Assembly (NCBI GenBank): GCA_035771165.1
Contig: JAWNZC010000285.1
Span: forward strand, 1,837,501 to 1,901,500
Direction: 5' to 3'
Origin: Paragorgia papillata
Lineage: Eukaryota; Cnidaria; Anthozoa; Scleralcyonacea; Coralliidae
DNA: 64,000 bases
Position 1 is the stretch's first letter. The number at the start of each line of letters is the position of its first letter. Position numbers and translations under genes: made by a program. Below the pieces are notes generated by a model. That model worked only from the letters and a program-made list of their open reading frames with translations, did not search any database and was not told where the DNA came from. This document shows, piece by piece, positions 4,148 to 40,322 of this stretch.

Positions 4148-4310
4148 AGTAGTGTACTAATATATATCATTTTTTTTTATGTGTTGGAGATTGGGTACTA
4201 GTCTTTAACCAATCATATTGTTTTTTGTTTTTTTTCGACCAATCGTAGTTCATTAGGAATAAATTAATTTCGATTTTGGACGGAGGGTGCTAGAGAGTAG
4301 GTGTTGGCTG
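4148..4310 (+). repeat. Polinton left terminal inverted repeat
   Basis: About 163 bp, nearly identical to the reverse complement of 40160-40322. Differences are a handful of substitutions and small indels in an A/T run. Similarity stops at GGTGTTGGCTG. Confidence 0.95.
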
Positions 4311-4359
4311 TTCATATATTAATTTATTTTCGGGTGTGGCATTTTTGAGTGTGTATTTC

Positions 4360-4412
4360 CCACAGCCGGGAGTCGAACCCGGATTATCTGGTACATTACC
4401 ACCAGCACCTTT
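4360..4412 (-). other. tRNA-like T-arm (tRNA relic)
   Basis: On the minus strand a perfect T-stem and loop, CCGGGTTCGACTCCCGG, contains a pol III B box and is followed by CTGTGGG. Upstream there is a hairpin CTGGTGGTAATGTACCAG, but no standard A box and no 5' acceptor strand. It therefore looks like a partial or divergent tRNA rather than a functional one. It lies just inside the left TIR and is absent from the right end. Confidence 0.4.
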
Positions 4413-4819
4413 CCACTTTGGTTTTTTGTTGTATGTGTGCGAAAAAATTATAAAAAATTAAAAAAAAAATTTATTTTTTATTGGAATAGAAAAAAAACTA
4501 AATTATTTTATTTTTTATAATTTTTTTTTGTGTTGAAAGTAGGTGTTACGTATAGGGTAATAAAAATAAAAATGAAAGAATTATAGAATTACGATGTAAC
4601 ATATACTTTTTTTTGAGTAAAAAAAAAGAAAAAAAAAGATTTTCTATATATGGCTAAAAAATGAAAAGAAAGAAAAAAAAAATATTTAAGTTTTTTAATA
4701 TTTTTTATACTTTTTTCCCATATATGGGTATAAGGGAGAAAAAAAATAATTTGTTTTTCCAGTTTCCAAAATATTTAAATTGTTTTTTATGTTTATTTGA
4801 AAGACAGTTCAAAAAAAAA

Positions 4820-5101
4820 ATGGATGAAGCGGGATGGTTTCGATGTATGTGTAAAAAATGTATGCGTGAAAAATGTAATATTGAAAAAGCGATACAGTAT
4901 TTAAATCAAAACCCTTATCTTATAGATTTTTTTTTTTTTAAAAGAAAGTTGTTGGGTTTTTTTCTTAGGAGAACTGAAAAAAAAATTAAAGAGGAAAAAG
5001 GGATTGAACGTGCAAAAATGGAAAACGGAAAAAGAAATAAAGAAACAGACAAAGTTGTTAATGACAAATTTGGATTACGTGTAAAAACAAAATTTGAATA
5101 A
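4820..5101 (+). CDS. Small basic protein with Cys cluster
   Basis: First gene inside the left TIR, about 93 residues from an ATG at 4820 preceded by a poly(A) run. The frame stays open further upstream but is low-complexity there. Cysteines near the start (RCMCKKCMREKC) could bind zinc. The C-terminal half is Lys/Glu-rich. No family recognised. It reads in the same direction as the rest of the left arm. Confidence 0.4.
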   Translation: MDEAGWFRCMCKKCMREKCNIEKAIQYLNQNPYLIDFFFFKRKLLGFFLRRTEKKIKEEKGIERAKMENGKRNKETDKVVNDKFGLRVKTKFE

Positions 5102-5130
5102 ATGTTTGAAAGAAGAAGAAGTTGAATAAA

Positions 5131-5367
5131 ATGTTAGTTAAAGAAATTGAAATTGATCTTATAACCGCAAAATATGAGTCGCTTGAAAAATTATGTGAAC
5201 TTTTAAACAATATTACTGATATTAAACTTAGAGTGATTGGTTGGTTAAAAAATTATTTTCAAGAAAATGAAGATAAAGTGGTTTTTGAAGTGATTGATAT
5301 GTCAGGTGCTGGTGCTTACCCGCATAACTATATATGGACATTATTTAAAATAGGTGAAAATATTTGA
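5131..5367 (+). CDS. Small left-arm protein
   Basis: About 78 residues from ATG 5131. The central segment (ITDIKLRVIGWLKNYFQENEDKVVFEVID) has the same pattern as the proteins at 6989 and 7427: a basic strand, an aromatic-Asn-Glu-Asp turn, then V-(V/F)FE. These three look like members of one small expanding family. Function unknown. Confidence 0.55.
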   Translation: MLVKEIEIDLITAKYESLEKLCELLNNITDIKLRVIGWLKNYFQENEDKVVFEVIDMSGAGAYPHNYIWTLFKIGENI

Positions 5368-5427
5368 TGAAGGAAAGATATAAAAAAGAATAGAATTCAT
5401 CATTAAGTAATCAAGTTTTTTCTTAAA

Positions 5428-5799
5428 ATGAACGAACAAAAGAAATCAACAAGATTTCAAGCAGCTGTGTTAGCGTATGCTAAAACAGAAATAATTTGTG
5501 TTCCTGCAATTTATTGTTGTGTTCAAAGAGATTTGGGTGAAGATATTAAAAAAATAGCTAGCGATGTGCAACAAATTTTGAATGAAAAGTTAACTAAAGT
5601 TGGTTTGGGTGACGAAATTTTAGTTGATGTGTTGGGTGTTTTGAAAAAAGAGATAAATCACGGAGTTCAAAGAGGTTTGGTTAATTTGGGATACAAGCAA
5701 ATCGTTTCAGAAGTAGCAGAACTTGGTGGTCATTTGGAGAACGTGAAGTTTGAAGAAAAAAATGGACAAAAAATTTTTACAAAGAATGAACAGTTTTAA
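5428..5799 (+). CDS. Helical left-arm protein, paralogue of next gene
   Basis: 123 residues, mostly helical. The pattern CVQRDLGEDIKK...QQILNEKLTKVGLGDEILVDV is matched by CVKEDLSVQIDD...QCFLNEYLTEVDLIEDIQLDI in the overlapping next frame, so these are tandem paralogues. The ATG follows a TTTTCTTAAA tract. Its 3' end overlaps the next gene by about 38 bp. No known domain. Confidence 0.6.
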   Translation: MNEQKKSTRFQAAVLAYAKTEIICVPAIYCCVQRDLGEDIKKIASDVQQILNEKLTKVGLGDEILVDVLGVLKKEINHGVQRGLVNLGYKQIVSEVAELGGHLENVKFEEKNGQKIFTKNEQF

Positions 5800-6121
5800 A
5801 AGTCATTACACTTACATTGATGGTTTAATTTTGGATAAAGTCAGAGACGGTGAACCTATTGATTTTAATTTAATAGTTCAATGTGTGAAAGAGGATTTAT
5901 CTGTCCAAATAGACGACGAATTTTCGTTTCATGTTCAGTGTTTTTTGAATGAATATTTGACTGAGGTTGATCTTATTGAAGATATTCAACTAGATATTAA
6001 AAGTCTTGTGATTGAGAAAATAGAACAGAGTGTAAAAAAGAAGTTGAAAGCGTTGCTGAAGAGAAGAGAAGAAGAAAGGTGTAATAAAGAAGAAGAAGAA
6101 AAAAATGGAAAAACTGTATAA
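5762..6121 (+). CDS. Helical left-arm protein, tandem paralogue
   Basis: About 119 residues from ATG 5762, overlapping the upstream gene in another frame. Shares the LxxxVxxDL...FLNExLTEVxLxEDIxxDI pattern with it. The C-terminus is a run of Lys/Arg/Glu and overlaps the next ATG at 6105. The close packing suggests a compact, virus-like gene array. Confidence 0.6.
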   Translation: MDKKFLQRMNSFKSHYTYIDGLILDKVRDGEPIDFNLIVQCVKEDLSVQIDDEFSFHVQCFLNEYLTEVDLIEDIQLDIKSLVIEKIEQSVKKKLKALLKRREEERCNKEEEEKNGKTV

Positions 6122-6338
6122 TTTAGATGAATTAGTAAAGAAACAAACAAAAAATTTTAAGGAAGAAGAAGAACTATTAGAAAAACAGAAGTATATAGTT
6201 GAACAAATAATCAAATTAAAAAAGTTAAAATCTTTCAAAGATGTACAAATTTATTTACATATGTATTTGAGAGAAAAAGATGTTGATGAATATTTTAATT
6301 GGTCAGCTTATATTGATTTTTTTAAAAAAAAGTTGTAA
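6105..6338 (+). CDS. Small helical left-arm protein
   Basis: 77 residues, starting inside the previous coding region. Charged coiled-coil-like N-terminal half, then a segment VQIYLHMYLREKDVDEYFNW that faintly recalls the FLNEYL segment of the two upstream genes. Possibly a third, diverged member. Function unknown. Confidence 0.45.
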   Translation: MEKLYNLDELVKKQTKNFKEEEELLEKQKYIVEQIIKLKKLKSFKDVQIYLHMYLREKDVDEYFNWSAYIDFFKKKL

Positions 6339-6468
6339 AAAAATAAATTTCTCTGTTTTTATATTATTTTTAATTTTTTTTTTAGATCATTTTCTATATT
6401 GCATTTTTTTTGTGTGTGTGTAGAATTTGATGTGAAAAAAGAATTTAAGGATTAAAAATAATAATAAA

Positions 6469-6843
6469 ATGGAGAAGAAAAAAAAATTGGAAGCGTATAA
6501 ATTCATTAGTCAGGAGTTAAGTGAAAGACCTTTTGTGGAAGATAAGATGTCGAGCGAATTGGATAAGAAGATTAATTTACTACTCAGGGAAACGTGTGTG
6601 TTGAGTCGAGTAGTATTGGATGGTTACCGTCGCTTGCTTCGTTGTGTAACGAAGAAGAAACCGTTCGACAGTGTACTTTGTCAGACGGAGATGATTTTGT
6701 TGATGGAAATCGAGACGATGAGCAACGAAGAGCGAGACAGCATAGTAACCATTCTAATGCCGGAGAAAAGCGATGACGAGAGTCTGTTGGCAGAAGTGGT
6801 CAGAGTTATAGTTTCTACCGTGGAAAGGAAAGGAGTACAATAA
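6469..6843 (+). CDS. Unknown helical protein, atypical codon use
   Basis: 124 residues, ATG at 6469 after an AT-rich leader. All-helical, charged at the start, with Cys and Arg clusters (CVLSRVVLDGYRRLLRCV). Codon use is visibly richer in G/C (TCG, CGA, ACG, GAG) than in its neighbours, so it may have a separate origin. No family recognised. Confidence 0.55.
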   Translation: MEKKKKLEAYKFISQELSERPFVEDKMSSELDKKINLLLRETCVLSRVVLDGYRRLLRCVTKKKPFDSVLCQTEMILLMEIETMSNEERDSIVTILMPEKSDDESLLAEVVRVIVSTVERKGVQ

Positions 6844-6898
6844 AATCAACATTTTTTTGTTGGTGTTTTTTTTCTCACAAAAAAACAAAAAAAAACTC

Positions 6899-6906
6899 TA
6901 TAAATA
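6899..6906 (+). promoter_or_regulatory. TATA box upstream of the 6989 gene
   Basis: TATAAATA, 83 nt before ATG 6989 and directly after an A-rich run. The same poly(A/T)-plus-TATA layout precedes several other Polinton genes. Confidence 0.5.
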
Positions 6907-6988
6907 CAAAAAAGTTGTATTATCAAAGTCACTTTATAGTAGTGATCAATTTGAGAGGGTTTAATTTACAAGAAAAAAAAAATTTGTA

Positions 6989-7342
6989 ATGGAAAAGTGG
7001 ATAAATAATATGAAAAAACATTTTAAATACAATGATGATAATGAACATGGTAATGAAAGAAACTTTATCGAGTTTAATGAAATATTAATTTTATTGAAAC
7101 AAAGTCCAGATTCACGTATTAAAGTTACTTGTGCAAAAAAAAATTATTTTAATAATAATGAGGATATGGTTTTTTTCGAGTTGTATGGATGTTGGAATTT
7201 AATTGCGCAGTATAGGTTTTATAGAACATTAGTTAGAAATATTCCAAAAAAAAAAGATCATGATTTTAGTTTGGATGTTGGAAAGTATACAAATACAAAA
7301 GATTGGGAAAAAAGAAAAAATAGAAAATGTGTAATACTATAA
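6989..7342 (+). CDS. Left-arm paralogue family protein A
   Basis: 117 residues. Core pattern ERNFIEFNEI..LL......VT.AKKNYFNNNEDMVFFELYG is closely matched by ERKFIEFNEV..IL.....KVTHVKKEYFHNYEDVVYFEIKG in the next gene, so this is a recent tandem duplication. A shorter relative may be the 5131 gene. No known domain. It probably folds as a small alpha/beta unit. Confidence 0.65.
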   Translation: MEKWINNMKKHFKYNDDNEHGNERNFIEFNEILILLKQSPDSRIKVTCAKKNYFNNNEDMVFFELYGCWNLIAQYRFYRTLVRNIPKKKDHDFSLDVGKYTNTKDWEKRKNRKCVIL

Positions 7343-7364
7343 TATATTTTTTTTAAAAAAAATG

Positions 7365-7371
7365 TATAAAT
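7365..7371 (+). promoter_or_regulatory. TATA box upstream of the 7427 gene
   Basis: TATAAAT about 60 nt before ATG 7427, after an AAAAAAAATG run. It lies between the two tandem paralogues, so each copy may have its own promoter. Confidence 0.45.
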
Positions 7372-7426
7372 GTGGATTCATTAAATAAATAAATCATTTT
7401 TAAAGTTGTTTTTGTGTTTTTTGAAA

Positions 7427-7765
7427 ATGGAAGAAGAAACAACTATGACTCAATATAGAAGGAGAGATTTATATGAAAAAGAAAGAAAATTTATTGAATT
7501 TAATGAAGTATCAGATATATTGTTCGGGAGTTCGGGAGTGTGTAAAGTTACTCATGTGAAAAAAGAATATTTTCATAACTATGAAGATGTTGTTTATTTC
7601 GAAATAAAAGGAATTTTTCAAGATGGACCTGCGATATCAAGATATTATTGGACATTGGCTAAACGTTATAGATTTCGTCATAACAAAAGAAAAAAAAGAT
7701 GTGATTTTAGTAAATGTGTTGGAACGACAACAAGAAGAGAAGATTGGGGGAAAGATTTTTACTAA
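7427..7765 (+). CDS. Left-arm paralogue family protein B
   Basis: About 112 residues from ATG 7427. An in-frame ATG at 7406 is less likely because of its hydrophobic lead. Tandem paralogue of the 6989 gene, sharing FIEFNE, the KKxYF(N/H)xxED turn, the (V/F)FE strand and the YW/FxRTLA-type segment. Basic C-terminus. Function unknown. Confidence 0.65.
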   Translation: MEEETTMTQYRRRDLYEKERKFIEFNEVSDILFGSSGVCKVTHVKKEYFHNYEDVVYFEIKGIFQDGPAISRYYWTLAKRYRFRHNKRKKRCDFSKCVGTTTRREDWGKDFY

Positions 7766-7810
7766 TTTTTTTTTTACATGTAGTTTTCAGAATAAAAATT
7801 ATTTTTTAAC

Positions 7811-7965
7811 AGAATAATTTACAAAATGGTTCTGTAGATTCTTCATATTTTATATTGTCAAATTTAATACATTGTACTAATGCAAGATCTTCATTATTGG
7901 GTAATGTGATACAGTGTAACTTTTACGTTTTTCATCAATAATAAAATTGTAAGGAAATGGAATTC
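7811..7965 (-). pseudogene. Fragment related to the 27457-27732 gene
   Basis: On the minus strand the frame reads TLPNNEDLALVQCIKFDN, closely matching the DEDLALVQSVSFH segment of the right-arm protein at 27457-27732. No start codon is seen, so this is a partial copy. It is another left/right arm correspondence. Confidence 0.5.
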
Positions 7966-8059
7966 CATACTATAATAATATTAATACCGTCTTTTTCTTG
8001 TTTTTTCTTTTCAACCTTTTTTTTTTAAAAAAAAAATTATATAGGAATAAATTCTTTTT

Positions 8060-8545
8060 TTACATTTTTTTTCTTTTTACATCAGTGATATCAATGTAAA
8101 AACGAACGATTTCACTACGTACTTCAGGGTAAAGATGATAAACATTAGATAGGAAACTATCTAATGTAAGCGATGAATTCCATACATCACACCACATCAA
8201 TATGCTTTCAAAATTATTTTCTTTAACATTTCTTTTCTTGTCAGTCAGTAAGGCGGTCTCGTATTTTTTCGTACGATTTGTTTTGCATTCTGCATCTTCA
8301 TTTTCGGGAAAAAATCCTGCATGATCGATAGAGAAAGTGAATTCCCCTGCTACTTTTGGCCAAGAGTGTATGAGTTTCATTAACCCGTTGATAAACCCCA
8401 CTTTTGCATTAACTAGCGTTGTGGTTGTGGAATTATTTTTTTGTAGAAATCCTGTCCATGCTCTATCAGTGACTTCTCTTATCAATATATTTTCATTTTT
8501 ACCATCACCATCGATTCTTACTTCTTTTGTTGTTGTTGTTGCCAT
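8060..8545 (-). CDS. Unknown 161-residue protein
   Basis: Intact minus-strand gene. The ATG at 8545 lies about 40 nt downstream of a minus-strand TATATAAGG (8585-8593). Contains Thr-rich stretches and a central IHSWPKVAGEFTFSIDHAGFF segment, with a basic C-terminus. No TM segment or signal peptide. Family not recognised. It points away from the frameshifted plus-strand gene at 8672. Confidence 0.6.
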   Translation of the reverse strand: MATTTTKEVRIDGDGKNENILIREVTDRAWTGFLQKNNSTTTTLVNAKVGFINGLMKLIHSWPKVAGEFTFSIDHAGFFPENEDAECKTNRTKKYETALLTDKKRNVKENNFESILMWCDVWNSSLTLDSFLSNVYHLYPEVRSEIVRFYIDITDVKRKKM

Positions 8546-8584
8546 TTTGGTTTTTTTTTGTGAAATTTTTGGTTTAAAAACCGT

Positions 8585-8593
8585 CCTTATATA
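8585..8593 (-). promoter_or_regulatory. TATA box for the 8545 minus-strand gene
   Basis: TATATAAGG on the minus strand, about 40 nt before the ATG at 8545. Confidence 0.5.
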
Positions 8594-8671
8594 ATAATAT
8601 TTTTTCCAAATACGGATTTTTTTATTTAAAAAAAAAATATATATATTTATATAAATGTTTGTGTTGCTTTA

Positions 8672-9831
8672 ATGATAAGAAATACTTTAATGTTAAAAAG
8701 TATTTTGATGAATGTTTATTATCTACAAACTTTTAATCATGGTTCAATCGGTCTTTTGTATTGGATGTTTGGGTTACTACATCATTATAGGGGTGGATTT
8801 ATTTATGCTATTGAAAGGAAAAACAAACAAGAAGAAGAAGAAGATGATGGTTGGGTGCCGGAATTATTTTTATATAATGGAATTGTTGATGATGAAGAAG
8901 GAGAATTGATTTCACCCTATGTAACGATATGTTCAGGATCTACGGATTTTCTATTACCGTATATAAACGATAAAGAAAACTGTTACGGGATAGTTTATTC
9001 TGAGCAAACGGATCAAATTATGTTATGATGTTATTTTGATTTTGATTGTTGTTGTTCTGTATTTCCTGTAAATGATAAAATTAGATATTATTTTAAAATT
9101 TATTACCGAAATACTTCTGATAATTATCATTTAATAGGGTGTATGGATAATATAACAGATGAAATGTATTCACCTGTAGCGGGTGAAATGTATTCGCTTT
9201 TTTTTTATATAAATGAAACATTCGGTGAAACATGTTTAAAAATATGTTTTTTTTATATTCTATTTCACCGTATCTTTTTTACCATTGTTGGGAAAGAGAT
9301 ATACACGATATACTAATGTATCATGATAATTATGATACTTTTTGGATTAATACTACTTTAGTTTATAATTTAGCTGTAATTTTTACAATGTCTTGTAATT
9401 CACATAATCCAAACGGAATATTAGTTCGGGGAGTCAATATTGCTTATAATATGGTTTTATTTGATAAATTTATTAATGAGGTCTTAGAAGGTAATTTGAA
9501 TTTCGATTTTTCTGTTGATCCTAAATATGTATATAGAGTAAATACAGAATGTAGATTTAAAAATTGTAAAAAAAAAGTAAAATATCCGGTATCTCCTTTG
9601 TGTTCTTTAACACAGAAATTACATTATACAAAAATGGATATATTAAAACAAATAACAACGATTCCTTGTAATATTCAAGAAAACAATCAAAGAACTATTT
9701 TAACCAGCAGGAAAAAAAATTGTTTTGTAAAAATAAATAATAACGAATTAACGGATATTAGAATTAGATATGTAACAGATATATATCGTTATCAACCTGT
9801 AAATATTTCATATATTTCTACATTTTTGTAA
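8672..9831 (+). pseudogene. Left-arm copy of the large arm protein, broken
   Basis: Paralogue of 29827-31172. Shared landmarks are PYVTI.SG..(D/Y)FL.P.IND near the middle and NLxxIF...C..HNP.G.L.R....YN near the C-terminal third, plus a CxxKNC motif. The reading frame has a TGA at 9026-9028 and a shift near 9240, so it is split in at least three pieces here. The C-terminal open piece starts at 9232. No known domain. The Cys/His-containing C-terminal part may bind metal. Confidence 0.65.
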
Positions 9832-9903
9832 AAACAAAAATATATTTTATTTAATTAATTTTTGTGAAAAAAAAAAAAGAGAATTTTTTTTAATTTTATT
9901 TTT

Positions 9904-10041
9904 ATGCAATTTCCCATTTGTCAACGTTTTTTTAATGAATGTATAAATTTTTTATGTAAAAATGATAATTTCTCAGAAAAATATTTTATTGAGTGTGTAA
10001 ATTTCTATAACGAATCTTTAACCTTATTTGGATTAAAATAA
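9904..10041 (+). CDS. 45-residue Cys-containing peptide
   Basis: ATG 9904 to TAA 10039-10041. Contains two repeats of the pattern FxECxNF (NECINFLCKN and IECVNFYNES). It lies between the arm paralogue and the 10124 gene. Too short to classify. Confidence 0.3.
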   Translation: MQFPICQRFFNECINFLCKNDNFSEKYFIECVNFYNESLTLFGLK

Positions 10042-10061
10042 TTTTTTTTCAAAAAAAAAAG

Positions 10062-10068
10062 TATATAA
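10062..10068 (+). promoter_or_regulatory. TATA box upstream of the 10124 gene
   Basis: TATATAA directly after a ten-A run, 56 nt before ATG 10124. Confidence 0.5.
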
Positions 10069-10123
10069 CTAATCGCAGCAATATTTTTTTTAGTTCATCC
10101 GTCTTCTTTTTTTCAAAAGCGAG

Positions 10124-10855
10124 ATGGAACTATATCTGAAAGAACATACTCAACATAATTGTGTGTTGGTAAAATATAATGATTTATCTCAAAAAATAGT
10201 TGCGTTAAAGAAAAAAAATGATAAAGCAATACTGGCTAAGGTATATCCGACAAGTAAACAATGTCAAAAGTATCTGGTCAACAGCGAACTGGAATTGGAT
10301 ATGGATCTAATTCCAGAATTGATTAATGTTCTTAACAACATGAATGTCAAAGCAAACGATTGGTCAGCACAAGTATTTGTGGTTGTTTCTGAATATGTTA
10401 ATTACAAGAAAGATTCTATGCGTCTCGTGTTGCGAAATAATGATTTTGGCACAGGAGAACTTATTATTCAAAAGAAATTAGCGGTTCTTCCTGAAGTTGA
10501 TTTGACGTTCGCTGATGAAGCTGAAGATGAAAATGAAGATGAAACTTTCAATGGCTTCAACGTAGCGGAAGAAGAAAAATGGGCGGATCAGTGGGGAAAT
10601 TTTTCGTTTAAGAAAACGGACAATTTGGGTGATATAGCCAGGCAATTGGGAAAATTTTATCACCTCGTAAGGGGTACAGCAGCTGGTGGTGGTGGTAAAA
10701 GAAAAAAGAATAAAAATGATGGTGGTGAAAAGAAGAAGAAGAAGATAGTGATAGAGGATGAAGAATTAGCTGAATGTGACTTGGATACATTAGTGGAGAC
10801 ATTAGAAAAAAAACCCAAAGATTTCGACGAATTAAAAAAAATAAAAAAAATATGA
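10124..10855 (+). CDS. Unknown 243-residue protein with acidic middle and basic tail
   Basis: Intact. The N-terminal 130 residues look like a mixed alpha/beta domain. Then come an acidic stretch (residues ~133-150), an EEEKWADQWGNFSF segment, a Gly/Lys-rich nuclear-localisation-like stretch (~188-207) and an acidic/basic C-terminus. It lies just upstream of the integrase, on the same strand. The next gene overlaps its stop (ATGA-type overlap at 10852). Position and charge suggest a virion- or DNA-associated protein, but no family is recognised. Confidence 0.6.
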   Translation: MELYLKEHTQHNCVLVKYNDLSQKIVALKKKNDKAILAKVYPTSKQCQKYLVNSELELDMDLIPELINVLNNMNVKANDWSAQVFVVVSEYVNYKKDSMRLVLRNNDFGTGELIIQKKLAVLPEVDLTFADEAEDENEDETFNGFNVAEEEKWADQWGNFSFKKTDNLGDIARQLGKFYHLVRGTAAGGGGKRKKNKNDGGEKKKKKIVIEDEELAECDLDTLVETLEKKPKDFDELKKIKKI

Positions 10856-11040
10856 GTGATGCAGCTTTAGTTGAGTTATCATATTATTATGGATGTGGAA
10901 AATTAAATTTAGAAGATTGTATTTGTCGTTATAATACGGTTATAAATGAAGGGTTAAAAGATGATGATAAATTTGATTTTGTTAATACGTTAATTACTGG
11001 TGAAGTGGATGTAATTAGATCATTAATTGAAAAAAGATAA
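10852..11040 (+). CDS. Small 62-residue protein
   Basis: Overlaps the upstream stop by 4 bp, typical of tightly packed viral genes. Contains YYYGCGKLNLEDCICRYN, then a helical acidic half. Function unknown. Confidence 0.5.
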   Translation: MSDAALVELSYYYGCGKLNLEDCICRYNTVINEGLKDDDKFDFVNTLITGEVDVIRSLIEKR

Positions 11041-11063
11041 AAAAATTTTTAGGAAAAAAAAAA

Positions 11064-11957
11064 ATGGTGAAAAAAACCAAAACTTTTTCAGAAGAATTTA
11101 TAAAAAAAGCTGCAAGACTACTAAAAGGAGAAATATTAGAAAAAGAAGATTTAGAAAAATATAAACAACATAGAAAAATTAAAAAAAAATATAAATGATT
11201 AAGTATTCATGTTAATGAAAAAAATGAACAATGGTGTATTGATTTAGCAGAAAATAAAGATTTGTCAAGATTTAATAAACAATATCGTTATTGGTTGGTT
11301 TGTATTCATGTTTATTCAAGATATGTATGGATTGAACTTTTAAAAAAAAAAACTGCTAAAAATACAGCGAATAAATTTGAAAATATTTTAAAAAAAGAAG
11401 ACCACCCTATGAAAATACAATGTGATGAAGGGACAGAATTTCAATCAATTCGTAAAGAATTGAGTCAAAAATATGGTTTTACTGTTTTTCATACTTAGAA
11501 TCGTGAAATTAAAGCATCACATGTTGAGAGAGTAATTCAAACTTTAAAAAAAATGGTGAGACGTGTTTTGAAATTAACAGGAGAATTTAATTATCACAGT
11601 TACTTACCAATTATTGTTGAAAGATACAATAAATCACCACATTCAAGTTTAAACGGATTTACACCGCATGAAGTATATCGTGAAAATAAAAAAATAAAAA
11701 AATTTAAAAATATAATGTTGCGAAAAATGATTTCACCTATTACTTTTACAAAGAACGTCTTGAAAGAAGGAACTACTGTACGAATTGTGAGAAAAAAAGA
11801 CAATATTTTTGAAAAAAGTAGTTTACAAGGGTGGACCGATGAAAAATTTAAAATAAATAAAGTATTTGCGACCGATCCAATTACATACGAATTAAAAGAT
11901 TTTAATGACGAAAAAATAATTGGTATTTTTTATTTGGAAGAATTACAGAAAATATGA
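11064..11957 (+). pseudogene. Polinton retroviral-like integrase with two in-frame stops
   Basis: RNase H-fold integrase that would catalyse insertion of the element's ends. The catalytic triad is visible: the first Asp in WCIDLAE, the second in CDEGTEF and the Glu in ASHVERVIQTLKK. A C-terminal chromodomain/SH3-like part carries VRIVRKKDN. The frame from ATG 11064 is interrupted by TGA at 11196-11198 and TAG at 11496-11498, both in the same frame, so this is nonsense mutation rather than shift. Its 3' end overlaps the minor capsid ATG at 11954. The family call is strong from the motifs and neighbours. Confidence 0.9.
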
Positions 11958-12893
11958 ATTTACAAATTTTAAGTAATACTGTAAAAGAAGGAAGGACTAA
12001 TTACACAAACGATTTTGAAATGAAATTATTTCAACCTATCGATGGATTAAATCGGGAAGCATTTTTTGAAGTTACATCTGTTACTTACCCTTCAACAACA
12101 AAAAATATTCCTGACGATGAATGTTGGTTTACATTAGAAATAAATTACCGTGATTTTAGATGGCTTTTTCCTAATAATGTTTATAAAGATTGTTCTTTAC
12201 AATTGGTGTTGGATAAAATTATTATTGAACAAGGATTTTATACTTTAAAAAAATTACTGAATTATATAAATAACGCTGTGAACGAATATGATATTTTTTT
12301 TATCTGCGATAATAACGGAGAAGTAAAAATAAATGTAAATGTCTACAGTGAATATTGGATAAGGCAGGAATACACACACGGAATTGAGTCTGATGACGGT
12401 GTAGAGCTTAATTGGTTTCATTTATCCAAACCTTCAATAAATAAACAAAATCAAAAAAAAATATTTTTTTATCGATATTGAATTAAATTTTTCTACAAAA
12501 TTAGCATTTATGCTGGGTTTTTCAGAAAAAAAACATCGTTTTAATCAAAATACGGATCAAGAGAAACTTGATAGTACGAATTATACAATTTCCGCTCAAT
12601 ATTTACCCGATATTTCTGATGGTTTGGATAAAATATTTGTTTATTGTGAAGAATTAGAAAGAAGTTTTATCGGAGATACATCATCCGAACTATTAACTAC
12701 AATTCCGATTCGTTGGAATGAACAAGGAAAGGGAAAAGGGGAATTAATTGTTTATTCTCCTCCTTTAATTAAAAGAAAATTTAAAAAAATGAAAATTCAG
12801 TCATTACATATAACATTAAAAGATAGTGTAGGAAAAAAAATTCCATTTGATTCAGGAACTGTTAGTATCGAAGGATTAATTCATAATGCTTAA
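11954..12893 (+). pseudogene. Minor capsid (penton, single jelly-roll), frameshifted
   Basis: Polinton minor capsid protein, predicted to form the pentameric vertices. The first part (from ATG 11954) has the family-typical start: a beta-rich EVTSVTYPSTTKNIP strand region, then a helix with YINNAVN. The second has LAFMLGFSE, VYCEELE, FIGDTSSELL and a terminal strand ending in VSIEGLIHN, a pattern found in Polinton and adintovirus pentons. The two parts are in different frames, and the switch is at the A-run near 12450. It sits between integrase and capsid genes, the usual neighbourhood. Confidence 0.8.
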
Positions 12894-13984: not shown

Positions 13985-14035
13985 TGTTTAAAAAAAATTA
14001 AAAAATTAAAAAAAAACTTTAAAAAAAAAAAAAAA

Positions 14036-15277
14036 ATGGAAATAGAACCTTCAGAACAAGAAGTTGATCAACATGACACATTATTTAGTAAACCTTTAGA
14101 ATTTTTTAAACCAAAACCGTATAATGATATGTTTATGGAAACGCGAGAATGTGACATTTATTCGAATCCAAAAGATAAATTTTCTGACGTATATACTTTT
14201 ACACATAATGGAAATAGTATTGGTTTAATGAAAACAAGTCATGCTGAATTTTCAGCAATTCTTACAATTTGTACTGATGCAGGAGCGATTGCAGGTGCAG
14301 GTGCAAATCTTAACCCCCCACCTATTCCTTTACGTACAATGTGGAAAACAAAAGAATTATTATTAAATGAGAATTTAGTTACACCCGCTGATAATTTTGG
14401 TTATTATTCTTCATATGTCAATTTTATATTATGCGAATCTCCAACACAATATAAAGATTCTAAAGAAATAAATTGTTGTTATCTTGATACAGCGGGCCAG
14501 ATGCAAACTATACGCGGACTAAATACGGGTATGCTTGCTAGAGGGGAACTTTTAACTAATAGAGATGCTCATCTAATCGATCATATCGATTTACCTTGTT
14601 TCAGTAAAAACGGAGGAGAACAATATCTCCCAAGCGCTTTTAAAGTTGAAATAAAATTATCAAGAGCGCCGGTTCGAGTGGTGTGTATGCAAGGTGATCA
14701 CGCTGATTTGAATGTAAATCATGGTAAAATCGGATTGGAAAATTTTAAATTGAAAATTCCATTTTTTAAACCCAAAGATCAATTAACAGACGCTTTAAAT
14801 ACATCATTTGTCACGGATCAAAAAGAAGCTAAATATTATACTTCAACATTACGTACAGTGACAGAAACTGTCCCCGCTGGAAGAAGAAGTTTAATTGTGA
14901 ACGATATATTTAACGGAAGTTGTCCCGTACGTTTATTTATGATGCAGCTTCGTGAAACTAGTTTTAATGGAACACTTGCAACTAACGCATTTAATTTTCG
15001 ATGGGAAAATTATTCAAATGTAAATATTTCAGTAAATAACGTTAGTGTAACAACTATAACAGATCAAGTGGAAGCGTATAAATTATTACGTAAAGTACTC
15101 AATAAAAGATTTTCAGAAATGCCATTCAGTTATAATGATTTTTGTAACGGTTATTCAATTTTGGGTTTTGATTTAACATCAAATCATGATACTCATTTAA
15201 AAGTATTACCTAATCGTCCCAGCGGTGTACTTAACGCTCATTTGAATACAGCGCAGATACAATCGCTGGAACGATGA
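14036..15277 (+). CDS. Major capsid protein (double jelly-roll)
   Basis: Intact 413-residue gene. The lead ends in FFKPKPYNDMF. Typical of Polinton/adintovirus major capsids are LPSAFKVEIKLSRAP in the middle, VNDIFNGSCPVRLF and NAFNFRWENYSN later, and a C-terminal YSILGFDLTSNHD followed by ...NAHLNTA. These proteins build the pseudo-hexameric trimeric capsomer. The A-rich leader holds the ATG at 14036. It is the longest undamaged Polinton gene here, a contrast with the broken integrase and polymerase. Confidence 0.85.
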   Translation: MEIEPSEQEVDQHDTLFSKPLEFFKPKPYNDMFMETRECDIYSNPKDKFSDVYTFTHNGNSIGLMKTSHAEFSAILTICTDAGAIAGAGANLNPPPIPLRTMWKTKELLLNENLVTPADNFGYYSSYVNFILCESPTQYKDSKEINCCYLDTAGQMQTIRGLNTGMLARGELLTNRDAHLIDHIDLPCFSKNGGEQYLPSAFKVEIKLSRAPVRVVCMQGDHADLNVNHGKIGLENFKLKIPFFKPKDQLTDALNTSFVTDQKEAKYYTSTLRTVTETVPAGRRSLIVNDIFNGSCPVRLFMMQLRETSFNGTLATNAFNFRWENYSNVNISVNNVSVTTITDQVEAYKLLRKVLNKRFSEMPFSYNDFCNGYSILGFDLTSNHDTHLKVLPNRPSGVLNAHLNTAQIQSLER

Positions 15278-15278
15278 T

Positions 15279-17849: not shown

Positions 17850-17856
17850 TTTTTTT

Positions 17857-18088: not shown

Positions 18089-18191
18089 GACTTCTTTTTT
18101 TGTAGTAAAAAACTTTTTTCTTCTTCTTCTTCTTATACTCTTTTTTTTTTTTTTTAAAGTAAAAAAAAGTCAAAGTCAAAAAAATTTTTAT

Positions 18192-27732: not shown

Positions 27733-27742
27733 TAAGTGTTTC

Positions 27743-28744: not shown

Positions 28745-28859
28745 GTTGAATACTAAAAAAAAATAGAAAAATATTTTATAGTTATACTTTTTTTTTTTTT
28801 CAAAAAAAAACTATATAAGAAAACACTGAAAAAACAGAAAAACAGAAAAAATTTTCAAA
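28745..28859. promoter_or_regulatory. Divergent promoter with mirrored TATA boxes
   Basis: Between two divergent genes: a minus-strand TATA-like TATAACTATAAA (about 28774-28785), a T14 run, an A9 run, then plus-strand TATATAAG (28812-28819), 41-48 nt before ATG 28860. The near-symmetrical layout suggests a bidirectional promoter with a poly(dA:dT) core. Confidence 0.5.
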
Positions 28860-29940: not shown

Positions 29941-31172
29941 ATAAAACAAGATGATATTACTTGGAAATGGATTTTCACAATGATTCCATCATTTCGTAAT
30001 TTTCGTAATCGTTATTTTGGATATCTCTACTGTGTATTGGTTTGTTTCATTTATATTCTGGTGGATTTACAAAATTAATTCAAAGAGAAGAAGAAGATGA
30101 AAAATCAGCACATGGATGTGGAGAACCCTACCCGTTTTGGTTGTTTAATGGAACTCCTAATAAAATGTATAAAATTGAAAAATAATTTTTACCTTACGTG
30201 ACTGTATCGAATGGTGTTAATTACTTTTTAGTACCTGACATTAACGATAGTGATGATAAATGGTGTGTAAAATACGATCGAGATCTAGCAGAATTTATAT
30301 TATTTCGTGACAATAGATTTCTTTTTTCTTTTTTTCCAAAAAAATCCGTAGTTAATGAATATTATTTTCAAATGCTAAGATGTAATTTTGAAAATTTTGA
30401 AAATGAAAAAATCCCGCAAAACTGGTTTAATATTTTAATATGTAAAAGACTTTCAAAACCTCCAATGATAAATACACCCTTCACAGCATGTTTATACAAA
30501 GGAAGATGTTTGGAAGAAAAAACATTTAACATCTATACATTATTATACAATGTTATTTCAAACAAAAATTATTTGAAAGTTTGTTTTTTTCTATTTTCTC
30601 TAGCTCCAAATCTTTTTTATCAAACCGTTGAGTGTTTCAACTGTGAATGTAATATAAGCGAAGTATATAATTTAGTATTGTGTTTCTTATGTTATTGTGA
30701 TGCTCATAATCCAACCGGTGTATTAAAACGAAATCGAAGATACTCGTACAATTCTCAATTAATGGTAACACATATACGACTATTTGGAGGACTTGGTAGT
30801 ATAAGTTGTAAATATAAAAATTGCCGACAACAAGGTAAATCTCCTGAAATAAATAAAGGATACGAAATTTACGAAATTGATATGCTATCTGACGAGCAAA
30901 TAGAAATAGAAAAAAAACAAAAAATAATTTACTCGCGCGAACCGCAAACTTATCATCATTGTAATGAACATAATGAAAGCGTTGACGGAAATGAAATCGA
31001 ATTTTTTACTCGTAATGATAATTTCTTTAAAATCATGGCGTTAGCTAATTTTGATGACATTTATTTAGCCGTTAATAGTATGATTCGAAATTTATCATCA
31101 AAAACTACTGATCAATTCAAAGAAGATTTTCAAAAATATAAATACAATAATAATAATGATTTATTACTGTAG
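29827..31172 (+). pseudogene. Right-arm copy of the large arm protein, broken
   Basis: Paralogue of 8672-9831, better preserved. It opens with the 60-bp duplicated segment, shifts near 30030 (into YSGGFTKLIQREEEDE..GEPYPFWLFNG), hits TAA just before 30187, then is open from about 30190 to 31172. Landmarks: PYVTVSNGVNYFLVPDIND, then CLYKGRC, FYQTVECFNCECN, CFLCYCDAHNPTGVLKRN and CKYKNCRQQGK. Many Cys residues suggest metal binding. No known family. About 400 residues if intact. Confidence 0.65.
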
Positions 31173-31741
31173 CATATCATTTAATTTATTAAATGAAGAA
31201 ATGTAAATATCTCTATTTTTAAAAACAAAAATACTATTTTGTAATAATTCTAATTCTTTACATAAATTTTCATGTTGTTTAAATGTTTTTATTTTACAAG
31301 ATAAATTGTTACTTAATATAGCAAATAAAGTCTTTCCTACACGTCCATTACCGTCCGAAAACGGGTGGATATATTGTAATGAAAAATATACACGTGTTAT
31401 AATATTTTTACTTAAAGAATTCTTAATATAAAATTCGTCCAATAGTCTCATATATTCATCTATATATTCGGGTAAAGGAGGGCAATGATTTCCTATTATT
31501 CTTCTAAAATTGAATATTCACCTCCGTTTTTCATACAATATTTATGTAAAAAAATACATATTTCACTTATTTTCATTTTTTCCATTTTTTCTTTTTTTTT
31601 TAAATATAAAATATTAATTGCATTACTCAATTTTCCACAAGAATACCAAAAAAAACCATCACCCTCGTTTTCTTCCATTTTCACTACATCGTAAGCAAAA
31701 ATTTTAACTTTCAAATGAAATAATAATTCTTCTTTTTTCAT
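31164..31741 (-). pseudogene. Fic-domain protein, one frameshift
   Basis: Fic proteins transfer AMP or similar groups to target hydroxyls. The active-site motif HPFSDGNGRVGK is present (canonical HPFx[D/E]GNGRxxR; the last Arg is Lys here). Upstream is the CPPLPEYIDEYMRLLDEFY segment typical of Fic cores. The N-terminal part (31741 to 31496) is in another frame; the switch is at GAAGAATAATAGG near 31490. About 190 residues. I see no inhibitory (S/T)xxxE(G/N) helix. It overlaps the end of the convergent arm gene by a few bases. Confidence 0.8.
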
Positions 31742-31748
31742 TTTTTTT

Positions 31749-32150
31749 TTATTGAAAATAATATGTTGTTATTATCACCGATGACGCTAACAATGTCAAA
31801 AAAAATAAATCTTTTTTTAAATATTTTCTTTCTCTTCTTCTTTTAATTTCACGTTCAAAATAGTCTGTAGCTTTTAAATCTTTTACTGTCAATTCCACAA
31901 GAAATTCTACGTCTTCTTTCGATATTTTTCCGCTTTTTTCACAAATTAAAATTAATCCATAAAAAACGATAATTATTCCCTCATTCAGTTCGTCGTTGTT
32001 AAACCTTCGATAAATCTGATGTAACTGATTACAGTCGAATTCCATGTGTCTTACTATTGTTTCTTCCATTACCTTCAAAATTTGTTTTTCCAAATATCGA
32101 TTTTGATAGATAATCCCCTTATCTTTAAGTCGAGTAATAATAACAGTCAT
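31749..32150 (-). CDS. Tail-anchored helical protein, Bcl-2-like candidate
   Basis: Intact, 133 residues. All-helical; near residues 50-72 NDELNEGIIIVFYGLILICEK resembles the BH1 region of Bcl-2 proteins in spacing (acidic, N-x-G, hydrophobic, F-x-G, hydrophobic C). A basic stretch precedes a C-terminal membrane segment (LFFLTLLASSVIITTYYF), as in tail-anchored Bcl-2 proteins. A BH2 Trp is not evident. If true it would act at host mitochondrial or ER membranes. The ATG overlaps the stop of the upstream coiled-coil gene. Alternative: an unrelated tail-anchored viral membrane protein. Confidence 0.4.
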   Translation of the reverse strand: MTVIITRLKDKGIIYQNRYLEKQILKVMEETIVRHMEFDCNQLHQIYRRFNNDELNEGIIIVFYGLILICEKSGKISKEDVEFLVELTVKDLKATDYFEREIKRRRERKYLKKDLFFLTLLASSVIITTYYFQ

Positions 32151-34335: not shown

Positions 34336-34337
34336 AT

Positions 34338-34870: not shown

Positions 34871-34882
34871 AAAATAAATAAA

Positions 34883-35655: not shown

Positions 35656-35832
35656 AACAAAGTAAAAAACCAAAAAGCATTCACGCTTTTATAATTTCCA
35701 AAATCACTTAAAAATACTAAATTAATAATTCCAAAAAGCCCAAATAAGGTGATAAAAGATTAAAAAAGCATAAAAAACATAGAAAACAACGGGTGTCTAT
35801 AATCCGTTCACTCACTCACTCAGACAATCAAA

Positions 35833-36498
35833 ATGGAGAACATCGAACAATCATTTAATAAAGAAAAATGTGATATCTGTACCAACGCGTTTAAAATAAT
35901 ACCTGTTGGACTACTACACAAATGGAAGAGTACTTATCGACATTATCTACACACCATTTCAAATGAATTATCACCATCATATCCCTATTTTAAATTTGCT
36001 TTAATCTTCTTCACTGAAACAGAATTTTATCATTGGTTGAATACTACTACAGGAGGTTTTACTTATGATGAACACTACGTTATGGTGTACAAGCCATCAG
36101 GACGTCACGCTCTATTTTTAACAGAAAACTTCGATGAACACTGTATTAAACTATCAACACAAACATGTCTTAAATGGATTACTGCTGCTGTAGAACGACA
36201 ACACGCTATCTCAGATTATAATCTTACACCCGGATTTGAAAGTAGCTTTTTAATTGAACTAGCAGTACAAATAAAAAATAAATATAAATGTGAAAAAATT
36301 CTAAGACTTATATTTTCACTTTCATACAAACACATAAATAAAAATAATTATGAAAAAACTATAGCAAAAAGGAAAAGAAAACGTAACGAAGAAGAAGAAG
36401 AAATTATCATTGAAAGTAAGAACAAAATACCTTTTTTTTACCTCTCTTTCTCTTCTCAAAGCAATAACTTGCTCAATCACATATTTCTGGTTTTTTAG
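35833..36498 (+). CDS. Arm paralogue 'INE(Q/T)SFNKEKC' copy 1
   Basis: 221 residues. N-terminal CDICTNAF zinc-knuckle-like Cys pair, then HKWKSTYRHYLHTISNE, FETEFYHW and LKWITAAVERQ. Closely matches 38768-39350 along its length (SFNKEKC.ICTN.F...P.G..HKW..TY.HYL...). The last 30 residues past RKRKRNEEEEE may be out of the natural frame or unspliced. No known domain. An intact homologue of the transposon-split copy. Confidence 0.65.
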   Translation: MENIEQSFNKEKCDICTNAFKIIPVGLLHKWKSTYRHYLHTISNELSPSYPYFKFALIFFTETEFYHWLNTTTGGFTYDEHYVMVYKPSGRHALFLTENFDEHCIKLSTQTCLKWITAAVERQHAISDYNLTPGFESSFLIELAVQIKNKYKCEKILRLIFSLSYKHINKNNYEKTIAKRKRKRNEEEEEIIIESKNKIPFFYLSFSSQSNNLLNHIFLVF

Positions 36499-36740: not shown

Positions 36741-36824
36741 TTCTTCAAAGTAAATATTTTTTTTTATTTTCTCACTATTATATAATATATATTCTCAGTT
36801 TGTTTGTTTTTTCTCCTTTTATAG

Positions 36825-37280
36825 ATGTGTGATCCTTTCTGTATTGTCTGTTCCCGCGAAATTACACACAAAAATCGACAATACTTTTACTGCTGTCCTG
36901 AATGTGAATATTCCATCATCTTTTGTAAAGATTGCAAAGAAGATGATAATAAAATCAGAACTATGGTATTCGATAGATGTGATTTTACTGGAAATATGAA
37001 ATGTAGAAATCGACAACTGCGCTGGTGGCGAAAATATTTTTCAGACAAAACTGCAGAATATAAAACTTTAGATGAAATTAAAAAAAATTACTTTGGAAAC
37101 ATAGATGTAGAAATAAAAATAAAAAATGAAATAAATTTTTTTTACCTTATAAGGAAAAAAAAAACCATTAAAGAAACGGAGTTTTATAATTTCTTTTTAC
37201 ACATCACAAAAAATGGAGACCATCGAAACCCAGACTGGAAACTTTGTAGTGCGCACGGAAGATCTTCCGTGCGCACTTGA
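36825..37280 (+). CDS. Cys-rich zinc-ribbon-like protein, cassette copy 1
   Basis: From ATG 36825. CIVCSR, then YCCPECEYSIIFCKDCK, then MKCRNRQLRWWRKYF. The same Cys spacing and K(C)xNRQxRWxxRYF signature occur at 39702-39902. After residue about 115 the frame crosses the start of the next gene and the transposon TIR, so the true end is probably earlier. Likely a small zinc-binding protein. Confidence 0.6.
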   Translation: MCDPFCIVCSREITHKNRQYFYCCPECEYSIIFCKDCKEDDNKIRTMVFDRCDFTGNMKCRNRQLRWWRKYFSDKTAEYKTLDEIKKNYFGNIDVEIKIKNEINFFYLIRKKKTIKETEFYNFFLHITKNGDHRNPDWKLCSAHGRSSVRT

Positions 37281-39350
37281 AAATCCACGTGCGCAATTTT
37301 GTCTGCGGAGCGCCGCGCGCGCACGCAAAAAAACAGCAAGCGCGCGCTGGATAAGTTCGACGTCTCTCTCACAAGAGGGGAGGAATTCACTGCCGTACTG
37401 AAGGAAGATTGCATTATCAAATCTCTCTACAATGATCCCGAGTTCTACCAATCTGTTGGCCGTGAGTTTTGCGTCATTTTCGACATAATGTACTCAAAAG
37501 CAGGCACAGAAGCTATCACAGAGTCATTTTACCGAGTTATGGAAACTCAAGAAATGGACGGTGGCCAAAGTCATGATGTTCTTTCTTTGAGAGCAAAGGT
37601 CGACTGGTCTCTTCCTTCAGTTAGTATTGCAGTGCGAAGCAGCACTTGATGGTACAGCTGACCTTTATATAAATGGTGACAAAGAAAGAGGCCTGAAACG
37701 ACATTATCTTCGTGTGTACAAGGACCAAAGATCCATGAAGAAAAGCAGTGAACTGTCCAAGGTCTTGGCACGTCATGCTGAAAAGAAGGCAAGACTTCCC
37801 TTTCTTCTTTGAAAATGAACCATTAACTGGAACAGTTTAAACTTTGAACATTCCTTTAATACTTTATGCAACGTATTATGTGAACTGTCTTGAATATTAT
37901 ATATCTAGTATTATGAGTTTATTTAATTATTTCTTGCAGTTTTGTTGTATGATGATCGAAGCAACGTTCTGAAAAGCAGAATTTAGAAAGTTATATCTAT
38001 TAAAGTGTACATAATAAATACAGCCATTTGCTTTCACTGAGTGCAAACCGCGACTTTGGAGTTTGGAATTGTTTAACGTTTAAAGCCTAAAGCTACGGTT
38101 ACACATGCCGATTTGTGTCGCCGACTTCTTTTGCAATGGCGTTGCGAGATAAATCGGGCACCTGCATGCTACCGCTACACACGTCGATTTGTGTTGCATT
38201 GCAAGTTTTGACCACAAAACAAAAACTTGCAATGCTTCGGTAATGCCAAAATTGGCGTTGCATGTCGTTGCACGTTGTGTTACACCGTTACACAATACAC
38301 ACGAACGCCGATTTATCTTGCGACACAAATCGGCGTGTGTAATCGGGGCTTAAGCTTAACGTTTAAATAAGGCATTTCTCTCATTTTAACAAATAAGTTC
38401 TTAATGATCTCACTTCACAGTGACCTTTGTACAATGGGAACATTAAATCTGATTGGTTAAAACGAGAGAAAGGCTTCATTCAATCGTTAAGTTACTCAAA
38501 AAATGTTTGCGGTTTGTGCTTAGATGCAAATGGCTGTATCTTATGAGTACAATTTTAGTGTGTGTTTGTGTATCTTATTATGCAGAGGCAGCAGAGCCCA
38601 CAGTCCTGCAATAACTGATTAGTGGTAATTACCCCCCGCCCCCCCCCCGACTTTACGTGCAGAAGACCAAGCGTTGCGTGCGCAACACCAAGTGTTACGT
38701 GCGCATAATTTTGCGACAAAAAGTTCTTCCGTGCGCATGTAACAAAGTTTCCAGTCTGGATCGAAACATCATTTAACAAAGAGAAATGTTCTATTTGTAC
38801 AAATAATTTTGAAAGACTACCGGCAGGACAAATGCACAAATGGCGGGATACTTATCAACATTATCTATACAGCTTGACAAATGAAACAACACATGCATAT
38901 CCGTTATTGAAGTATGCTATAAACTTCCCAACTAAACTCGAATTCAGAAATTGGTGTATAACAAAAAGATTTCCTAATTCAGAAGAAGAAAACTACGTTA
39001 CAGTCTATAAAGAAGTTCAAATACATACTCTATTTACAACGAAAAACTACGATGTCGAACAGAGCATTGAACTGAATACACACGTTTGTCTTCGATGGAT
39101 TATGTATACTATATTATGTATACAAACTGAAGGAGCCGAATTTGACTATCAACTTACAACGCAAGTTGAATGTAGTTTTTTAATTGAACTTACAATAGAG
39201 ATGACAGATACAATAAAATGTGAGAAAATTCTAAAACTTTTATTATCAATTTCATGTAAACATAAAAAAAACTATGAAAGTTTTATAGCAAAAAGAAGAG
39301 ATAAAAGGAAACAAGAAACAGCAGAAATCTTAGCAACTATTGATACTTAA
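37213..39350 (+). pseudogene. Arm paralogue copy 2, split by a transposon after codon 5
   Basis: ATG 37213 starts METIE, then the transposon at 37230-38759 intervenes. The coding region resumes at 38768 (SFNKEKCSICTNNF) and continues open to 39350 (ends RDKRKQETAEILATIDT). The duplicated ATCGAAAC falls exactly where the frames meet. Homologous to 35833-36498 over its length. Before insertion it was an intact gene of about 200 residues. Function unknown. Confidence 0.85.
37230..38759. mobile_element. 1.5-kb DNA transposon with 8-bp target duplication
   Basis: Ends CCAGACTGGAAACTTTGT in inverted orientation; ATCGAAAC at 37222-37229 and 38760-38767. Just inside the left end is a palindrome GTGCGCACGGAAGATCTTCCGTGCGCAC. 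An 8-bp duplication points to hAT or P superfamilies. Inside, 37299-37812 holds a broken coding remnant (VGREFCVIFDIMYSKAGTEA..., then ...TADLYINGDKERGLKRHYL in a shifted frame) that looks like a transposon-derived protein end. Probably non-autonomous. Confidence 0.9.
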
Positions 39351-39676
39351 TGAAATATAATTTTTTTTTTTACCTCTTTCAATTGTAATGTATAATCTTC
39401 ATAAAACACAACTTTTCCCAAAAACTTATCAAAATTATTTTTGGTCAACTCATCAGTAGTCCAGAAATAACCCAAAGGACAAGTTGGTTTTTCTGGATCT
39501 TTAGCGACCACTTCAAAAAAAAGTACCATTGGTTTTTCTTCTTCACTATTGTCATCTCCTGGGATATCAATATTTTTCCCACCACGTAAAATCAAATCAT
39601 TATTGGGATAAAATTCGCGAAAAAAATTCAATTGTTCGATGTCAAAGAACCTATTCGTCTTCTCCCACTCATCCAT
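39347..39676 (-). CDS. 109-residue protein, cassette copy 2
   Basis: MDEWEKTNRFFDIEQLN opening shared with the 36595 minus gene. Then a beta-rich middle (PMVLFFEVVAKDPEKPTCPLGYFW). Stops four bases into the convergent gene. A donor-like GAGGTAAAAA near its end leaves open a spliced tail. Unknown. Confidence 0.5.
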   Translation of the reverse strand: MDEWEKTNRFFDIEQLNFFREFYPNNDLILRGGKNIDIPGDDNSEEEKPMVLFFEVVAKDPEKPTCPLGYFWTTDELTKNNFDKFLGKVVFYEDYTLQLKEVKKKIIFH

Positions 39677-39701
39677 CGTGAAAGAATAAAAAGAAAGAAA
39701 G

Positions 39702-39902
39702 ATGAAAACTTGCTTAAGTTGTTATTATCAAATTCATAATATAAACTTGGAACATTACTATTGGTGTCATAAATGCAAAGTTTACATAACTTTTTGTTAC
39801 TTTTGTTCCCGAAATTATATAAATTGTATTAAAAGTCTAATTTCTAAAAAATGCAAATGTAAAAATAGACAAGCGCGTTGGTGTAAAAGATATTTTTGTT
39901 AA
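39702..39902 (+). CDS. Cys-rich zinc-ribbon-like protein, cassette copy 2
   Basis: 66 residues. CLSCYYQ, YWCHKCKVYITFCYFCSR and KCKCKNRQARWCKRYF, matching the 36825 protein. Last gene before the right TIR. A small zinc-binding fold is likely. Confidence 0.6.
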   Translation: MKTCLSCYYQIHNINLEHYYWCHKCKVYITFCYFCSRNYINCIKSLISKKCKCKNRQARWCKRYFC

Positions 39903-40159
39903 TAAATAAATAAAAATATTTTTTTCATTTTTTTTTATTTTTTTTTTCTAACGTTTTAACTAAAAAATTTAAAAAAAAATTTTTTTAAAGTTTTTCCTTA
40001 TATGGAAAAACGTAAAAATTTCAAAGAAACCCAAAAAACAACAACTATATATTCAATAGCAATTTTTTTTATTTAGTTTTTTTCTTAGCGGTATCCAACC
40101 TTCACGGTATCAACGTTCACTATTTCTATACTTCAAAGAAAAAAACCCAAAAAAAACCC
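39903..40159. other. Polinton right subterminal region
   Basis: AT-rich, no gene. Contains a hairpin-like ...CCTTATATGG... (about 39997) and poly(T) tracts. Confidence 0.5.
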
Positions 40160-40322
40160 CAGCCAACACCCACTCTCTAGCACCCTCCATCCAAAATCGA
40201 AATTAATTTATTCCTAATGAACTACGATTGGTCGAAAATAAAAATAAAACAATATGATTGGTTAAAGACTAGTACCCAATCTCCAACACATAAAAAAAAT
40301 TCACATATATTAGTACACTACT
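40160..40322 (-). repeat. Polinton right terminal inverted repeat
   Basis: Inverted partner of 4148-4310, ending TAGTACACTACT and followed by TGTACA. The high similarity of the two TIRs argues for a fairly recent insertion. Confidence 0.95.

Follow-up and report, generated by a model that had tools for sequence, protein, structure and literature searches.

A probable broken copy of a multicopy, large-armed Maverick (Polinton) lineage in the genome of the anthozoan Paragorgia papillata

From our analysis of a 64,000-nucleotide stretch of the Paragorgia papillata genome (hereafter the window; contig JAWNZC010000285.1, positions 1,837,501 to 1,901,500 of assembly GCA_035771165.1), the element at 4148-40322 is, with a probability we put at about 0.88, an endogenous copy, by now broken, within a multicopy lineage of large Mavericks (Polintons) whose measured copies, from its own subfamily and from a second group (group 2), span ~27-36 kb. 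The element is 36.2 kb long (36,175 bp gross) and is bounded by terminal inverted repeats (TIRs) of 163 nt, the left one starting with AGTAGT (4148-4310, +; 40 scored TIR matches in the genome) and the right one terminating with ACTACT (40160-40322, -), with 155/163 positions matching (8 mismatches). The target-site duplication TGTAC flanks both ends (4143-4147 and 40323-40327), as the initial annotation had claimed; it could be the 6-bp TGTACA given one lost A, 5 bp being the rule in other copies. The length of ~31.5 kb claimed there after removal of two insertions is also borne out, as both insertions are real and subtraction (36,175 - 3,137 - 1,538) gives 31,500 bp. Accessory arms make up ~60% of the element, which keeps the earlier claim of a large non-core share and raises its estimate of about half.

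The core genes are arranged in a left module on the + strand and a right module on the - strand, converging near 17.5 kb. Judged from their sequences, the identifications of an rve (retroviral-type) integrase in two frames (11199-11957, +; Pfam PF00665, E 1e-9), an A32/FtsK-type packaging ATPase (18192-18881, -; Pfam PF04665, E 3e-9), and a protein-primed PolB in four frames (18882-22904, -; PF03175, E 1.6e-32 and 2.1e-9; PHROG 1907, E 8e-36) are secure; the N-terminal open reading frame (ORF) of PolB (21396-22904) had no Pfam match. The candidate major capsid protein (MCP; 13985-15277, +) is called from its relatives, weak fold matches, and position. It has 18 relatives at 44-57% identity in the protein collection, all unnamed and of source 'ena', and the C-terminal end known from these relatives sits in another frame. 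Its fold model is poor (predicted local distance difference test, pLDDT, 38.7), the fold search gave no viral match at E <= 0.001, and the top viral matches of this poor model were a Tetraselmis virus protein and adomavirus LO7 (E 1.2e-3 and 3.3e-3), both presumably with a capsid role. By position, we place a candidate minor capsid (penton) gene in two frames at 11909-12893 (+), with no convincing family match in a search covering its first ORF, and a candidate cysteine protease in two frames at 16801-17435 (+), with a His and Cys motif recognised by eye, no Pfam match for 16959-17432, and no convincing family match. One or more basic proteins with repeated QKGG/QRGG sites at 17544-18169 (-) may represent a virion core protein; the repeats look like maturation-protease sites, and a basic protein with such repeats is also found in the right arm at 27135-27368, behind a SET-like gene. 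With PolB spread over four frames and the end of the MCP shifted out of its frame, this copy is broken.

In vertebrate Mavericks, convergent PolB-ATPase and integrase-minor capsid-MCP-protease modules are flanked in most elements by two accessory regions, and the commonest end motif is 5'-(AGT)2//(ACT)2-3' (PMC8097293); the module layout (with candidates in the places of the capsid and protease genes), the two accessory regions, and the ends are the same here. Barreat and Katzourakis (2021, PMC8097293) give intact vertebrate elements a length of 12.7-24.6 kb and duplications of 6 bp, whereas the same-subfamily elements with both ends measure 27.6-36.2 kb here, have mostly 5-bp duplications, and carry one paralogue per arm. 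Polintons as a whole typically measure 15-25 kb, with representatives to 40 kb, and have PolB and the retroviral-type integrase in common with this element (PMC6431247), which differs in its Fic and SET-like arm genes; sizes and arms of Mavericks/Polintons are also tabulated elsewhere (PMC12567637). Since two-armed Mavericks and Polintons of up to 40 kb are already published, the element belongs to a large, arm-rich Maverick lineage and is not a new kind.

We then searched the 618-Mb assembly (473 contigs) for further copies, using the best-scored matches for each query: 40 of 164 for the TIR, 114 of 496 for a nuclease-like arm gene, 150 of 219 and 122 of 274 for copies A and B of an inter-arm paralogue described below, and 98 of 611 in a further scan. 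Among the best 40 of 164 TIR candidates, paired TIRs delimit at least eight elements, the window's included. Six besides the window's belong to its subfamily and range from 27,566 to 35,346 bp (gross lengths, own insertions included): C285:962816-998161 (35,346 bp; duplication GTTGT), C72 (33,568 bp; AAGTT), C261 (31,606 bp; TCCCTA), C111 (30,231 bp; CATAA; left TIR minus a stretch), C199 (29,372 bp; TGTTC), and C223 (27,566 bp; AGAGC). A more diverged pair is found in C23 (22,503 bp; AAATC), and group 2, a second and younger group, is represented by C50 (27,358 bp; AAATG) and C461 (29,185 bp; GCATG), with TIRs of ~690 bp at 98.6% and 97.8%, respectively. AGTAGT/ACTACT ends are present in all ten copies checked (the window's, the seven pairs, C50, and C461), and the target duplication is 5 bp in nine and 6 bp in one (C261). 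The search by TIR that the initial annotation had proposed therefore yielded same-subfamily pairs of 27.6-35.3 kb with arm genes, and not the copies of 15-20 kb with identical TIRs, and arm genes confined to the window, that it had named as contrary evidence. Its assignment to Polintons/Mavericks and the large size stand, given the core genes, the ends, and the 31.5 kb net length; "unusually large" does not hold within this genome, where a multicopy lineage has the element as one ordinary member among others.

The left, integrase-side arm (4311-10900) holds ~11 ORFs, mostly on the + strand, which recur in other copies, and the right arm spans 22.9-40.2 kb. G+C content is 0.27-0.28 in the arms and 0.26 in the core, the arm-core trinucleotide distance is 0.12-0.19, and trinucleotide make-up places the arms beside the core rather than the host. 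Three tested arm stretches contain 30 ORFs of at least 100 aa (10, 18, and 2), against shuffle means of 0.63, 0.50, and 0.09. Matches in at least one of the six same-subfamily copies were found for 28/29 tested arm ORFs, mostly at 80-100% protein identity; the ORF at 27457-27759 falls outside the fetched DNA. In these copies 74-100% of the left arm and 69-88% of the main right-arm stretch are covered at 91-96% DNA identity, part of the uncovered sequence falling outside the fetched stretches, and the outermost 1.5 kb is 83-89% identical, a mean to which matches with the paralogous copy contribute. Losses within fetched DNA concern ORF 6436 (not seen in C111) and ORF 39690 (not seen in C111 and C199). 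The ratio of nonsynonymous to synonymous changes (dN/dS) was estimated by simple Nei-Gojobori style counting on local matches, with strong A+T bias uncontrolled and with matches below 40 aa, or below 80% (same subfamily) or 45% (C23) identity, excluded. Pooled dN/dS is 0.38 against C23 (2,422 codons; below 1 in 20/20 ORFs, one C23 gene being able to match two window ORFs), 0.59 within the subfamily (20,522 codons), and 0.51 between C50 and C461 of group 2 (1,988 codons; ORFs of at least 120 aa at 85% or more), which is indicative that arm genes are apparently under purifying selection.

One gene family occurs in both arms, as copy A in two frames at 8630-9831 (+; function unassigned) and copy B at 30009-31172 (+; recognised by sequence comparison). 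The two are ~30% identical in the window (tblastn E ~1e-9; score 131, where shuffles reach at most 70) and ~28% identical in protein when the C261 copy is used, and the family had no Pfam or PDB match. The initial annotation had described both arms as paralogous in content; this stands for one family, a second inter-arm family (36 aa, E 0.001) being doubtful. The paralogue lies on both sides of the MCP in 52/82 MCP loci (41 with both members on the same strand, 11 on opposite strands), on the integrase side only in 13, on the polymerase side only in 8, and on neither side in 9. The count took 82/103 MCP, 97/124 copy-B, and 115/148 copy-A rows, second pieces and weak rows being left out, and used the paralogue that scored best within 13 kb of the MCP on the integrase side and within 26 kb on the polymerase side, so that a neighbour may be counted; a neighbouring element may account for at least two polymerase-side calls (C93 and C215:987379). 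Integrase-side members share the strand of the MCP in 65/65 cases, whereas those on the polymerase side share it in 45/60 and lie on the opposite strand in 15/60. Distances to the MCP are mostly stable, at ~5 and 13 kb or ~8 and 12 kb. C199 and C223 have an MCP-to-copy-B distance of ~7.5 kb against the usual ~13 kb, i.e., ~5 kb was lost on the polymerase side. Across the wider lineage of the window's element, query A picks up loci on the integrase side and query B those on the polymerase side, C215:987379 being the one exception seen. In group 2, both queries match both loci, or one of them, at low score; the pair there is inverted and is 69% alike in DNA and 48-51% in protein.

Several observations weigh against the reading of the element as a member of a large Maverick lineage with conserved arms. 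Position is what the MCP, penton, and protease are identified by, and the MCP candidate matched no Pfam family convincingly. The paired copy lengths include insertions of unmeasured extent, and 5-bp duplications in 9/10 copies differ from the 6 bp of the vertebrate set. Within the subfamily, dN/dS exceeds 1 in 3/28 arm ORFs (30186, 6436, and 39690) and is 0.95 in one more, and the pooled values are pulled down because the identity and length filters drop weak matches. In the tree, the group 2 duplicates of the inter-arm paralogue group more closely together than with A or B, so a single ancient shared duplication is unsupported. Conceivably, a Polinton of 15-20 kb could have grown as host DNA or other transposons, unrelated to it, inserted into its flanks, and the element does carry two real insertions and tandem duplications in the right arm. 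We regard this as very improbable, since arm composition matches the core and not the host, the arm ORFs are found again in six same-subfamily copies and, in many cases as diverged versions, in C23 and group 2, and the same-subfamily pairs are all at least 27.6 kb; only the two transposons fit such an origin. Endogenisation of a larger DNA virus from another group (adintovirus-like, or linear and bigger) that merely borrowed a Polinton-type integrase and polymerase is unlikely, though less so than enlargement by insertion. The large size, the arms of small unassigned ORFs, and the weak MCP fold matches, which include adomavirus LO7 and a MELD virus protein, point toward it, as do published meldvirus chimeras that mix such cores (PMC11071296). 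Adintoviruses and meldviruses are animal-associated and have PolB with an integrase and, as far as the candidates here go, adenovirus-like virion genes in common with the element (PMC11071296). Against such a virus, the core order, convergence, end motif, and TIRs are of the Maverick type. The question is partly one of names, because adintoviruses have been called largely synonymous with Polintons (PMC10120064). Two scans of viral contigs with the MCP candidate and one with a PolB piece gave no adintovirus match in a set without named adintovirus references. The initial annotation had likened the element more to a free virus than to a typical Polinton, a view that is not upheld: the polymerase and capsid frames are broken, the label of a free virus is not separable from that of a Maverick, and published Mavericks/Polintons show both the size and the arms, so these features make it no more a free virus than a Maverick.

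As a Maverick, the element would have worked as its gene families suggest: the integrase would insert the linear genome, a terminal protein would prime its replication, the capsid proteins and the ATPase would package it, and host interaction may fall to the arm genes (Fic, SET-like, nuclease-like, and many unassigned). One gene family is kept in both arms and genes pass between them, which might most simply come about by recombination of inverted ends or inverted paralogues during replication. Gene positions in group 2 bear on such movement. Relatives of the right-arm Fic gene, 29340, and 35380 are integrase-side there in 3/3 fetched loci (C354, C50, and C461), as are those of the right-arm 34859 and 35803 in C50 and C461 (2/3 loci), and the relative of the left-arm 8060 is polymerase-side in 3/3 loci. 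The side is kept by relatives of 5110, 6965, and 7385 (C50 and C461) and of 39690 (3/3). One simple whole-arm swap was rejected, as the outermost genes have their relatives on unchanged sides and strand orientation varies. Several rearrangements are needed, because some relatives keep sides while strands and order differ, and recombination via inverted paralogues or TIRs could be their simplest source. A tentative and rather doubtful extension is that the inverted copies of the paralogue pair serve as recombination sites, or are a record of them, through which arms are flipped or exchanged while the replication-capsid core stays fixed, the arms then forming a shuffling accessory compartment, perhaps like the genome ends of poxviruses or asfarviruses. 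More plausible, if short of an even chance, is that the inter-arm paralogy reflects chance capture or separate duplication of one gene that plays no part in arm exchange: identity between A and B is only ~28%, the two have the same orientation in the window's element, and the tree joins the group 2 paralogues to one another. Occupancy of both sides in 52/82 loci at mostly stable distances, and the closer, inverted pair that group 2 has of its own, argue against this. As orthologues, one each, of the group 2 paralogues, A and B are unsupported by the tree; the group 2 pair, being mutually closer, would therefore have arisen again or been homogenised there.

Among the other arm genes, the Fic-domain protein in two frames (31164-31768, -) retains an intact HPFSDGNGR motif and matches Pfam PF02661 (E 7.9e-9) and Fic chains in PDB (best E 7.5e-8). 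A SET-like protein gene cut by insertion 1 (23538-23955, +) is weakly supported from its sequence, by a Pfam SET match under the curated cut-off (E 0.098); a possible C-terminal part follows after 27090, with ILVDYGSEYW read past the insertion, and phmmer against PDB returned no SET chain. A conserved protein at 27743-28810 (-) has a weak RNase H-like/DEDD-exonuclease resemblance and at least 117 rows in the genome, and is present in 6/7 other paired copies, C223 being the one without a row. Among the relatives listed, the closest to this protein (P0019) and the MCP relative P0016 come from contigs equally long (94,724), which suggests that the contig is shared and that genes of these two types travel together elsewhere. 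Two equal-scoring copies of the nuclease-like gene lie on one strand 6.6 kb apart at C218:77790-78722 and 84389-85321. Paralogy within arms is clear for the tandem left-arm genes at 6965-7342 and 7385-7765, for 35803-36498 (+) and 38709-39350 (+; 47% to the first, by sequence comparison, its start displaced by insertion 2), and for the Cys-rich proteins at 36825-37280 (+) and 39690-39902.

Insertion 1 (23956-27089; 3,134 bp) is a DNA transposon without a recognised gene, with 33-nt inverted ends that are 79% complementary and TAT on each side. Insertion 2 (37230-38759; 1,530 bp) is a non-autonomous transposon with 18-nt perfect terminal repeats and the 8-bp duplication ATCGAAAC at 37222-37229 and 38760-38767, from which we take it to be hAT-like; its site is empty in 6/6 fetched same-subfamily copies, the flanks being contiguous with the expected 8-bp overlap. 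Both insertions have trinucleotide distances of 0.31-0.54 to every part of the element and are nearer the host flanks (0.14-0.25). Pfam matches in these flanks include P2RX7_C and SCAN, which fit an animal host. The flanking sequence also holds a Gypsy-like retroelement with SCAN, zinc-binding, and integrase domains (46894-50674), one ORF combining ankyrin repeats with DUF6589 (55061-57193), an intronless RecQ-type helicase ORF of 551 aa (58781-60436), and a long AT dinucleotide array (45948-46215) adjoining two direct repeats (45504 and 45781) that are 98% alike.

What looks new is the recurrent inter-arm paralogue, the movement of genes between arms, the Fic gene, the weak SET-like gene, and the mostly 5-bp duplications. 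Our literature search, which left most subscription papers outside its reach, found nothing relevant on Polintons with a Fic or SET domain or on Polinton paralogues in both arms. Mavericks are regarded as ancestral to many eukaryotic DNA viruses, and their accessory genes are poorly known. In essence, the many large-armed copies in this genome, with conserved and apparently selected genes, open arm function, gene exchange, and the role of the paralogue to study.

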